Of a stretch of DNA of 64,000 nucleotides, positions 11,824 through 15,056 are shown piece after piece (the stretch's first letter is position 1; every line of letters begins with the position of its first letter). The translations under genes were made by a program, and so were the position numbers. The stretch is from an uncultured Pelagibacteraceae bacterium (GTDB lineage: Bacteria; Pseudomonadota; Alphaproteobacteria; Pelagibacterales; Pelagibacteraceae): NCBI GenBank assembly GCA_902574525.1, contig CACGNQ010000001.1, positions 1 through 64,000 of the forward strand, read 5' to 3'. Below the pieces are notes generated by a model. That model was not told the origin of the DNA, searched no databases, and worked only from the letters and a program-made list of their open reading frames with translations.

Positions 11824-13018
11824 CTGGTTTCTCTTTTATTGGTAAATGTATTAAACCAGCAAATAAAGATAATGCAATTGCCAAATACCACGCATAATCA
11901 TAAGAACCATATAGGTCATAAAACAAACCACCTAGATAGGCACCAAAAAAAGATCCAATCTGATGACTTAAAAAAACTAAACCATAGAGTAGTCCTAAGT
12001 ATCTTGTTCCAAATATATGGGCTACTATTCCACTAGTTGCTGGTACTGTTGAAAGCCATAAAAAGCCAAAACTAGCGCCAAAAAAAATGGAAATAATTGT
12101 ACTAGGTGGTGAAAATATAAATATACAAATTGAAACTCCTCTTAATAAGTAGATTATACTCAGTATAATTTTTTTACTCATTTTTGTTGATAAGTAACCA
12201 CTAAGTAATGATCCAATTATATTAAAAAAACCAATTAAAGATAAAATTACTGCAGCTGTCCAATCAGCCAATCCTCTATCAGCAACGTATTTTGGGACAT
12301 GTGTTCCAACTAAGGTAATGTGAAATCCGCATACAAAAAAGCCAGCTATTAAAAGTAAATAACTTTTATTTTGAAAAGCTTCTTTTAAAGCTCCCATAGT
12401 GTCTTGTTTAAAATTAGTATCATTGGATTGAACCACGCTAGGTGATCTAACAAAATAACCAACCACAAGTCCAAAAGTTAAAAAAATCATAAATATGAAT
12501 AACGTTTGTTCCCATCCGTTAGAGCCCAAAGAATATTTAGTAAATAATGGGGACAAAAAATATCCAAAAGATCCAACTGCAGTAACAATGCTCATCGCTA
12601 TAGTCCGATTTGATAATGGAAAATGCTTTCCTACAATTGACATTGGAATACTAATTGCCGTCCCACCACATCCTATTCCAATCAAAACACCTAAACTTAT
12701 TTGAAAATAAATTCCAGTATTTGGTCCATTGTATAATAAGAAAACACCTAAAATATAAAAGAGAAATGCAAGTATGATTGCTCTATGCCCACCATATTTA
12801 TCAGCAATAGCTCCAAATATTGGTCCTGATAAGCCCCAGCCCAACATTTGAATGCCAATTGCTAGACCAAATTCCGTATTAGAGATTCCTAGATCGTTGT
12901 TAAAATCGATAAAAAACATTCCAAAAACTTGTCTAACGCTTAGTGATACAAGAACAACTAAGCATGCAGATATCAATGTGATAAGCGCTAAACGATTATT
13001 AATGAATTTTTCACCCAT
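11801..13018 (-). CDS. Major facilitator superfamily transporter
   Basis: 12-TM pattern, GPIFGAIADKYGGHRAI motif; overlaps pabB start by 23 bp. Confidence 0.9.
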   Translation of the reverse strand: MGEKFINNRLALITLISACLVVLVSLSVRQVFGMFFIDFNNDLGISNTEFGLAIGIQMLGWGLSGPIFGAIADKYGGHRAIILAFLFYILGVFLLYNGPNTGIYFQISLGVLIGIGCGGTAISIPMSIVGKHFPLSNRTIAMSIVTAVGSFGYFLSPLFTKYSLGSNGWEQTLFIFMIFLTFGLVVGYFVRSPSVVQSNDTNFKQDTMGALKEAFQNKSYLLLIAGFFVCGFHITLVGTHVPKYVADRGLADWTAAVILSLIGFFNIIGSLLSGYLSTKMSKKIILSIIYLLRGVSICIFIFSPPSTIISIFFGASFGFLWLSTVPATSGIVAHIFGTRYLGLLYGLVFLSHQIGSFFGAYLGGLFYDLYGSYDYAWYLAIALSLFAGLIHLPIKEKPVERTQTA

Positions 13019-14193
13019 TATTTAATATATTTAAATGATTTTCTAATATCTTTTATTAGATCTTTAGGATCTTCAAGCCCAATGTGCAATCTGACAATAA
13101 ATTCATTTTTTTTTAAATTTAAAAACTTTCTATTACCTTGTTCTTTAATTTCTTGATGAAGGGCCAGACTTTCAAATCCTCCCCAACTGTAACCATGTCC
13201 AAAAAAATTTAGAGAATTTACAAATTTATCAATAGATTTCTTATCTTTGGATTTTATTTTCATACCCATCAAACCTGAGGATCCTGAGTAATATTTTTTC
13301 CATAATTTGTAATTTTTAGAATTTTTTTTATAAGGATATAAGACTTCAATATTTTTCTTTTTTGACAAAAATTTTACAATAAGATTAGTATTTTTTTCAT
13401 GTCTATCTAACCTAACATCTAATGTTCTTAAACCTCTCATAATAAAATAAGCATCATCAGGGCTTAATCTTAAGCCAGTCATATTCTGAGCTAATAAAAC
13501 TTTTCTAAATATTCTTTTACTTACTGCTAAAGTCCCCCCCATTACATCCGAGTGCCCTGAATAATATTTAGTTGCAGATACTATTGATAAATCAAAACCT
13601 AATTTAATGGGCCTTAAAAAGTACGGAGTGCCCCATGTATTATCTATTGCTGTATAAATTTTTTTTGTTTTTGCTATAGAAAGTATTTTACCCAAGTCTT
13701 GAAACTCAAATGTATTACTTCCAGGATTTTCAACATAAATGAGTCTAGTTTTATTCGTAATATTTTTTTTGATTGTATCTAGATTATTCGGATCATAAAA
13801 TTTTGCAATTATGTTAAATTCATTTAAATACTTTTCAGTTAATAACCTAGTCGGACTATATACTGGATCAGCTATTATTAGTTCATCACCTGGCCTTAAA
13901 ACACTAAATAGACATAAAAAAACTGCCCCAAAACCTGTTGGTGTCAAAAATGTATGATATGATTCTTCCATTTTTGTTAACATTTTTTCTAATTCAAAAG
14001 TAGTAGAAGTACCTTGTCTTCCGTATTCAAAATGTCCACCTTTTGGATTCTTTAAGTTTTTTTTCTGCGTCTGTCTTAAATCTTTCATGGATTTAAAAAC
14101 CATTGTGGAGGTTCGAACTAATGGTGGATTTACTGAACGATTTTTAAAGTCTTTATAAGTATGTTTAAGATAAGTTTTAAAAGAATTTCCCAT
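13018..14193 (-). CDS. metC: Cys/Met metabolism PLP-dependent enzyme (cystathionine beta-lyase type)
   Basis: YGRQGTSTTFELEKMLTKME, YVENPGSNTFEFQDL, DNTWGTPYFLRPIKLGFDLSIVSATKYYSGHSDVMGG. Confidence 0.85.
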   Translation of the reverse strand: MGNSFKTYLKHTYKDFKNRSVNPPLVRTSTMVFKSMKDLRQTQKKNLKNPKGGHFEYGRQGTSTTFELEKMLTKMEESYHTFLTPTGFGAVFLCLFSVLRPGDELIIADPVYSPTRLLTEKYLNEFNIIAKFYDPNNLDTIKKNITNKTRLIYVENPGSNTFEFQDLGKILSIAKTKKIYTAIDNTWGTPYFLRPIKLGFDLSIVSATKYYSGHSDVMGGTLAVSKRIFRKVLLAQNMTGLRLSPDDAYFIMRGLRTLDVRLDRHEKNTNLIVKFLSKKKNIEVLYPYKKNSKNYKLWKKYYSGSSGLMGMKIKSKDKKSIDKFVNSLNFFGHGYSWGGFESLALHQEIKEQGNRKFLNLKKNEFIVRLHIGLEDPKDLIKDIRKSFKYIK

Positions 14194-14268
14194 AAATAAA
14201 TTTGATATGTGAGATTGAGAATGCTATATCCACCAAATAAGTCAATAAAATTATAATTTGAGGTAAAC

Positions 14269-14352
14269 ATGGGATATCCAAAGAAACATAGAGGCCGAAG
14301 AAAAATGGGCTCAAAAAAAAGAAGAGCAAGAAAAAAAAATAAAAAGAAATAA
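14269..14352 (+). CDS. 27-aa hyper-basic protein MGYPKKHRGRRKMGSKKRRARKKNKKK, possibly ribosome/nucleic-acid associated
   Basis: Read directly: ATG at 14269 preceded by TTTGAGGTAAAC (GAGG, 7 nt spacer), TAA at 14350-14352; absent from ORF track because of its length. Confidence 0.65.
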   Translation: MGYPKKHRGRRKMGSKKRRARKKNKKK

Positions 14353-14363
14353 TCAAACCCAAA

Positions 14364-15056
14364 ATGGATAGTATTCAAAAAGTTAGATCCATAACTTTAT
14401 GGATTTTTATAGTTCCATTCGTAGCAATAAATGCCTGTTTAATTTTGATTACGCAGTTTCACGGTCTTTTCCATCCTGAAGATATCATACATAATACACT
14501 ACCTTACATTGATGGTGGAGCATCGATAAGTCGAACTGCAAGAGTTTTTCCTACTTATTTGATTTTCAAGCCTGCTATGTTCCTTACTTCATATTTATTA
14601 ATAAAATATTGGATTTATAATAAAAATATAATTCTCTCGTTAGAAAAAAATAATAAGAATGTAAGTAAAATAATATTTTTTGGAATTGGCTCAGCAATAT
14701 TGTTAACTATTCATTCTATCTTCCTTGGAGTTAAGTTTGATTATGATTTGTATAAACTGTTTAGGAGAGTTGTAATGCTTCTTTTTATAATTTTTGAAAT
14801 TATAGCTCAAGCATACTTAGTTATTACATTGTATAAATTAAAAAATAAAATAATAGACAAAATAAATTTTAAATTTTTAAAATTAAAAGGATTGTTGGTA
14901 ACTTTATTAATTGTTGTAGCAATTTTAGCTATTCCAATTGTAAGCATGCCAGGTAACAAGTTTATAAAACATGCTCTAGAGTGGGATTATTTTGTAGGTG
15001 TAATAAGTTTTTATTTACTTACTTACTTTATGTGGAAAAAAAATATTAACTCTTAG
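14364..15056 (+). CDS. Six-TM membrane protein, tentatively Frag1/DRAM/Sfk1-like
   Basis: 230 aa multi-TM ORF; extracellular loop [28 protein letters not shown] is reminiscent of the family. Confidence 0.7.

Follow-up and report, generated by a model that had tools for sequence, protein, structure and literature searches.

A 27-residue basic protein of SAR11 bacteria belongs to an unnamed family with members in tailed phages

A 27-codon gene in the window (the whole 64-kb stretch of DNA that was analyzed) encodes a strongly basic protein whose family is common to SAR11 bacteria and many phages, and this shared occurrence is the main fact that the analysis adds to the first-pass annotation of the sequence. 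The family, with members of 27-40 aa, is without a name in the sequence libraries searched: no member was found in Pfam, NCBIfam, PHROGs or the PDB. It would comprise nucleic-acid-binding proteins that are chromosomal in SAR11 and HIMB59-type bacteria and are separately carried by many tailed phages. The preferred reading, to which about an even chance is given, is that it binds rRNA as a small ribosomal or ribosome-associated protein, of which many tailed phages have their own copy.

The gene and its coding capacity

The features of the locus are as follows.

14269-14352, + strand: gene for the 27-aa basic protein MGYPKKHRGRRKMGSKKRRARKKNKKK, stop codon TAA (14350-14352) included; frame conserved in about 203 family genomes, dN/dS 0.03
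14202-14207, + strand: -35 box TTGATA, followed by a 17-nt spacer; part of the pattern TTGA-N(15-17)-TGCTATA found upstream of the gene in 4/4 genomes and at nearly all loci of the genus
14225-14230, + strand: -10 box TATATC with an extended TGC in front; part of the same pattern, about 38 nt from the ATG
14260-14263, + strand: Shine-Dalgarno-like GAGG
14364-15056, + strand: 230-aa membrane-protein ORF, beginning 11 nt downstream of the 27-aa gene
13018-14193, - strand: metC-like gene, divergent from the 27-aa gene

The ORF at 14269-14352 is a real protein-coding gene under purifying selection. The complete ORF described in the first-pass annotation was confirmed, with its ATG at 14269, 27 codons and the same protein sequence. 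The product is strongly basic, as had been claimed (calculated pI of about 12, charge of about +15.6), but Lys and Arg account for 16 of 27 residues (59%, or 63% counting His) and not for two thirds. Its mass is 3.34 kDa, or about 3.21 kDa when Met1 is removed. No other ATG-initiated ORF in the window reaches both 25 aa and 55% Lys and Arg, and none with these properties arose when the window was simulated 100 times with an order-2 Markov model.

It was conservation that decisively distinguished the gene from a chance ORF. A peptide search of 61 genomes returned 32 positives, all from the window's own genus; these copies were 85-100% identical and contained no internal stops. The dN/dS ratio over 83 distinct DNA sequences of the genus type was 0.032, i.e., synonymous change was dominant, and the identical 27 residues were encoded by 59 distinct DNA sequences. 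Variability lay at third codon positions, with positions 1 and 2 conserved. Conservation in relatives and dN/dS were the checks that the first-pass annotation had proposed, with loss of the ATG or the frame in close relatives named as grounds for abandoning its reading; start, frame and stop were all kept. Identity between copies equaled or exceeded that of bL34 from the same genomes in most pairs (for the window's genome, 78 vs 75% against G301 and 78 vs 66% against G411). The same annotation had suggested an overlooked ribosome- or RNA-binding peptide. That a protein had been overlooked is strongly supported by its conservation, its promoter and its lack of a family match, and RNA or ribosome binding by it is plausible.

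A scan of the window against Rfam matched no family. Although the AT bias is extreme, most Pelagibacter loci use GGC for Gly codons 9 and 14 (window 14290-14312; alignment A4 columns 23-44), yielding the half-complementary stretches GAGGCC...GGGCTC, from which an RNA-level constraint inside the ORF is possible.

Distribution among bacteria

When 248 genomes of the order were searched by profile, 203 members of the window's family (f1), representing each of its six genera, gave a match at E <= 2e-6. Within f1 the gene is near-universal, single-copy and chromosomal. Two nearly complete genomes, G071 and G092, had neither the gene nor its usual neighbor mnmA, and its absence was therefore attributed to an assembly gap at the locus. 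Among the matches listed in a scan of named genomes, Candidatus Pelagibacter ubique HIMB058 and AAA795-E07 carry the gene, which identifies f1 as SAR11; counts from that scan, and from one of the viral scans below, are lower bounds.

Outside f1, a genome assembled as a single contig of 1,410,127 bp, which we take to be HIMB59, and its relatives carry MGYPKKHRGRRKIGSRKRRAKRRAKKK. A second group, presumably the AEGEAN-169 lineage, comprises G411 and single-cell genomes such as AG-337-I02, and carries MGYPKKHRGRRKRGSKYRRNKKRQKKK. The gene was found neither by profile nor at the mnmA locus in the sister family f2 of the same order (G037-G048, e.g., loci L199-L201), nor was it found in almost all other Proteobacteria sampled, and so the protein is not a core ribosomal protein. 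The presence of the gene in HIMB59-type genomes of other families but not in f2 reflects either loss or transfer, or else is a hint about the disputed relationship between SAR11 and HIMB59.

Promoter and gene neighborhood

The 27-aa gene of Pelagibacter is predicted to have its own conserved sigma70-type promoter. Each of the four complete Pelagibacter-type genomes that were scanned has the TTGA-N(15-17)-TGCTATA pattern upstream of the gene, and the remaining matches in these genomes occurred at about the level of a reversed-pattern control. As the -10 box lies only about 38 nt from the ATG, the leader would be short. A Shine-Dalgarno site of the AGG type was present at 110 of 160 loci overall and at most Pelagibacter loci; it was often missing at HIMB59 and AEGEAN-169 loci and in several other SAR11 genera. 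The GAGG site noted in the first-pass annotation is present in the window, but lies 5 nt, and not 7 nt, before the ATG. At HIMB59- and AEGEAN-type loci (L060-L063 and L096), about 8-14 nt separate the ATG from the end of a -10-like box (TATAGT, TATACG or TATACC), and a Shine-Dalgarno site was not seen; because of this short distance and the missing site, the mRNA of these copies may be leaderless or nearly so.

The gene had also been placed in a divergent intergenic gap. It is divergent from the metC-like gene, but the 230-aa ORF that follows is co-directional and is possibly co-transcribed with it in the window. The arrangement with the metC-like gene behind and the membrane protein in front was found in the window and in G012. 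The gene of SAR11 genera g5-g7 faces mnmA, that of the HIMB59-type genome is accompanied by an MFS transporter with msrB further on, and that of the AEGEAN-type group has unrelated genes as neighbors. A multi-spanning 230-aa membrane protein also follows the gene at L085 and L022. Since this ORF is not beside the gene in g5-g7, HIMB59 or AEGEAN-169, it is not considered part of the system. The changing neighborhoods imply that the 27-aa protein is neither a leader peptide nor a local operon subunit; as the neighborhoods are unrelated across hosts and phages, the protein presumably acts on a partner of its own.

Relatives in tailed phages

A scan of IMG/VR with the host profile identified 34 contigs with clear relatives of 28-40 aa, close to the host form, and a second scan, in which one divergent member served as the query, identified at least 460 contigs, mostly T4-like, of which 80 were kept. 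The T4-like form reads M-x-[WH]-P-x-KNRPRKGRRK-[IV]-GS-x-KR[KR]. The phage copies are real genes under purifying selection, as a Shine-Dalgarno site precedes 77 of 79 T4-type loci and dN/dS is 0.026-0.046.

The relationship between host and phage forms was examined with a profile (A8) built from nine T4-like phage sequences only; it contained no host sequence, and the test was therefore non-circular. Among 398 proteobacterial (Pseudomonadota) genomes, the best match to A8 was the window's own gene (G000, 14269-14349; E 3.2e-5, full length), and the second was in another SAR11-family genome. Compared with 3000 composition-matched shuffles, the SAR11 protein scored 12.5 SD above the mean, the HIMB59-type protein 10.7 and the AEGEAN-type protein 6.7. 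Host and phage forms are shown by these profile comparisons to be homologous. The first 25 residues encoded by phages L203 and L209 do not differ from those of the AEGEAN-169-type host protein, with a nucleotide identity of about 80%, which suggests that the same protein is demanded on the host and the phage side.

The phage copies occupy several settings. Those of group A belong to a module of head genes that includes the genes for the portal and the major capsid protein (PHROG matches); this capsid protein shares about 67-69% identity with its counterparts in Pelagibacter phages HTVC023P and HTVC027P. Those of group B lie in an early module with an exonuclease, an HNH nuclease and a DnaA-like protein. 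T4-like copies are near genes for glutaredoxin, ribonucleotide reductase (nrd), primase, a T4-type RNase H and a homolog of T4 gene 31.1. On T4-like contigs L222-L223 and L261-L338 the tiny gene often follows the gene 31.1 homolog (SH3-like, DUF2693) by 32-36 nt, with a DUF458 RNase-H-like gene and glutaredoxin nearby. The GC content of the phage contigs is 31-51%, against 25-30% at SAR11 loci, and many of these phages therefore probably infect other hosts that are without the gene on their chromosome. The family is spread more widely among phages than among hosts.

No member was found in the whole genome of the cultured phage HTVC008M, in the capsid neighborhoods of HTVC023P, HTVC027P, CRP-902, Pag-Yong1, DSL-LC04 and QDWS535, or in the T4-like neighborhoods of phiM12, RHph_I1_18, OC and part of Cr30. 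A tblastn search of the phage collection with the tiny proteins gave 0 matches, a result in which the BLAST low-complexity filter may hide them.

Family core and predicted structure

The family core reads P-x-K-[HN]-R-(PRK)-GRRK-[IV]-GS-x-K-R-[RK], and members carried P-x-K-[HN]-R-(0-3 aa)-GRRK-x-GS-x-x-R in an ORF of 27-40 aa. Across 61 distinct cores the G, RRK, GS and following R were unchanged, partly by construction as the search pattern required most of G-RRK-x-GS; I or V was preferred between K and GS. P4, H7/N7, G9, G14 and S15 are kept in both host and phage forms. For a 35-aa phage member, AlphaFold2 gave an extended arm (residues 1-14) and a helix (residues 15-34) with a mean pLDDT of 83 and a pTM of 0.39. 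The predicted fold is thus a free arm followed by one basic helix that begins at the serine.

Comparison with known ribosomal proteins

The first-pass annotation could not recognize the protein as bTHX, bS22 or eL41, and our comparisons agreed, as none of these scored above composition-matched shuffles. For bL37, also named there, the coverage was that of the general database scans, which yielded no match. Pairwise and profile comparisons were made against column, residue or composition-matched shuffles, with bS22, mS38 and bTHX references confirmed against PDB chains and provisional sequences for eL41 and E. coli bL34. The protein is like bTHX (PF17070) in its 27 aa, MG start, KKK end and basic character, but there was no similarity above shuffles, and the Thx models PF17070 and TIGR04560 did not match it while both matched true bTHX as a control. 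With the provisional sequence, eL41 was rejected at z -1.5 and p 0.40-0.96 against shuffles. Origin as a bL34 paralog was also rejected (p 0.33-0.65 against shuffles), and all 12 genomes carry their own bL34.

Among six reference families in the profile test, bS22 of Bacteroidota/Borrelia scored best (z 1.25, p 0.11), aligned so that [IV]-x-[ST]-[HK]-K-R coincides, in a test of low power that gave z 1.5 and p 0.086 for the accepted pair of Bacteroidota and Actinobacteria bS22. In the other shuffle tests (single-sequence and HMM), bS22/mS38 gave p 0.08-0.84; in the single-sequence and HMM comparisons the Bacteroidota/Borrelia forms gave p 0.22-0.6 and the remaining forms p 0.08-0.6. PF08213 had no match in the SAR11 genomes searched and none above cut-off in 193 alphaproteobacterial genomes. 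The 27-aa protein was matched by neither PF08213 and NF047430 nor the solved bS22 chains; the models also miss the accepted Fjo and Borrelia bS22, whereas Msm (actinobacterial) bS22, the positive control, matches both. The bS22/mS38 assignment was dropped as unsupported, the similarity being not significantly greater than that of shuffles, and an early visual match to Flavobacterium and mycobacterial bS22 was mostly composition. Accepted Flavobacterium and Borrelia bS22 are likewise without a Pfam or NCBIfam match, and tiny proteins rich in Lys and Arg easily escape HMMER with its bias filter and BLAST with its low-complexity filter.

Identity of the protein with bS22/mS38 (AURKAIP1/COX24), as a divergent but true member held in the 30S pocket of h27, h44 and h45 and forming a bridge to the 50S subunit (H67/H68) as in Mycobacterium, Flavobacterium and Borrelia, is unlikely, though less so than the other alternatives considered below. 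The two share their size (about 30 aa), composition (55-65% K/R), frequent lack of annotation and a loosely spaced motif, [RK]-x-K-[IVM]-x-[ST]-[HK]-K-R, in which Pel K12-[IVM]13-G14-S15-K-K-R aligns with Fjo K11-V12-A13-T14-H-K-R, but host forms drift at residue 13, to Q or R, and the Pel-type invariants YPKKHRG and GS are missing from bS22. The profile score is about as strong as that of the accepted pair, and Borrelia bS22 was also unannotated until cryo-EM (PMC10618245); the lack of significance in the single-sequence and HMM tests and the PF08213 results stand against the assignment. Furthermore, bS22 does not appear among the phage-encoded ribosomal proteins that PMC6375957 names. The protein may still work like bS22, which binds the 16S h27/h44/h45 pocket in common with mS38 and resembles eL41 (PMC10618245, PMC10085706). 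No SAR11 ribosome structure was found in a literature search.

Proposed function

Binding of the protein to RNA is very probable, with the ribosome as a possible site. The invariant arm and basic helix, the slow evolution and the independence from neighbors suggest a protein that binds in an RNA groove, for instance a tiny ribosomal protein. In the proposed mechanism, residues 1-14, which form the invariant N-terminal arm, would dock together with the basic helix from Ser15 into a folded RNA, for which 16S or 23S rRNA is the likeliest candidate, and the 27-aa protein would be a ribosomal or ribosome-associated subunit. The phage copy would serve to maintain or change the ribosomes of the infected host, a role that has been proposed for phage bS21. 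Phages encode the ribosomal proteins bS21, bL31, bL33 and bL12 (Mizuno et al. 2019, PMC6375957); when E. coli expresses phage bS21 or bL12, the protein is incorporated into ribosomes (PMC6375957). The present family is similar in combining a small host-type protein with a matching phage copy that is common in aquatic phages, and HTVC008M, a pelagiphage that infects Pelagibacter, carries bS21. It is unlike them in that it is not among the known ribosomal proteins, its ribosome link being putative, and in that it is wider in phages than in hosts.

Several observations weigh against rRNA binding by a ribosomal or ribosome-associated protein. Composition alone fits DNA binding too, and similarity to known ribosomal proteins was not detectable beyond composition; the phage gene neighbors are replication, nucleotide and head genes, not translation genes; the gene is missing from f2 and almost all other Proteobacteria; and the higher GC of the phages means that many are probably in hosts without the chromosomal gene. 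A bolder form of the proposal, which falls somewhat short of an even chance, is that this is a new ribosomal protein outside current inventories in the most abundant ocean bacteria, that hundreds of phage lineages independently carry copies to remodel host ribosomes, and that SAR11 may have acquired it from phages.

Lambda N-type arginine-rich peptides can insert a short basic helix into the groove of an RNA, and evolve fast with their cognate boxB. The predicted arm and basic helix of the present family, its far wider and more varied occurrence in phages, and the frequent position of phage copies in early or nucleotide-metabolism modules would fit a phage-derived RNA-binding regulator, either such a peptide acting on nascent RNA or RNA polymerase or an RNA chaperone, that was domesticated by SAR11/HIMB59 ancestors. 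However, group A copies lie among late head genes, and the 27-aa protein is almost invariant and universal on SAR11 chromosomes, which makes this origin rather doubtful.

Ranked below it, and improbable, is a protamine-like, DNA-condensing peptide that serves as a nucleoid protein in SAR11 and as a packaging or condensation aid in phages. Such a role accords with the composition and with the portal and capsid genes that adjoin the group A copies, but not with the nrd and primase genes beside the T4-like copies, and peptides valued for charge only should drift, yet the five positions P4 to S15 listed above are kept. A leader peptide or RNA element for the downstream gene, or a spurious ORF, is very improbable and largely refuted: the close co-directional gene and some conserved GGC codons in Pelagibacter are outweighed by a downstream gene that differs or is convergent in other genera, by conservation at codon positions 1 and 2, by the unmatched Rfam scan and by the Shine-Dalgarno sites of the T4-type phage loci.

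SAR11 genomes are streamlined and intensely studied, and this nearly invariant gene is still without a name in the libraries searched; its many Lys and Arg residues make the protein nearly invisible to trypsin-based proteomics and bias-filtered homology searches. Should the protein prove ribosomal, then the commonest marine bacteria have a ribosome component that is in no model so far. The phage spread would then make the gene a tiny translation-targeting gene alongside bS21, and the family lends itself well to testing whether ribosome parts move from phage to host or from host to phage. The 27-aa sequence was not found in a literature search. Conserved intergenic coding regions of HTCC1062 were excluded by Meyer et al. 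2009 and moved to the supplement (PMC2704228), and the 27-aa ORF may have been seen before, among the regions in that supplement.
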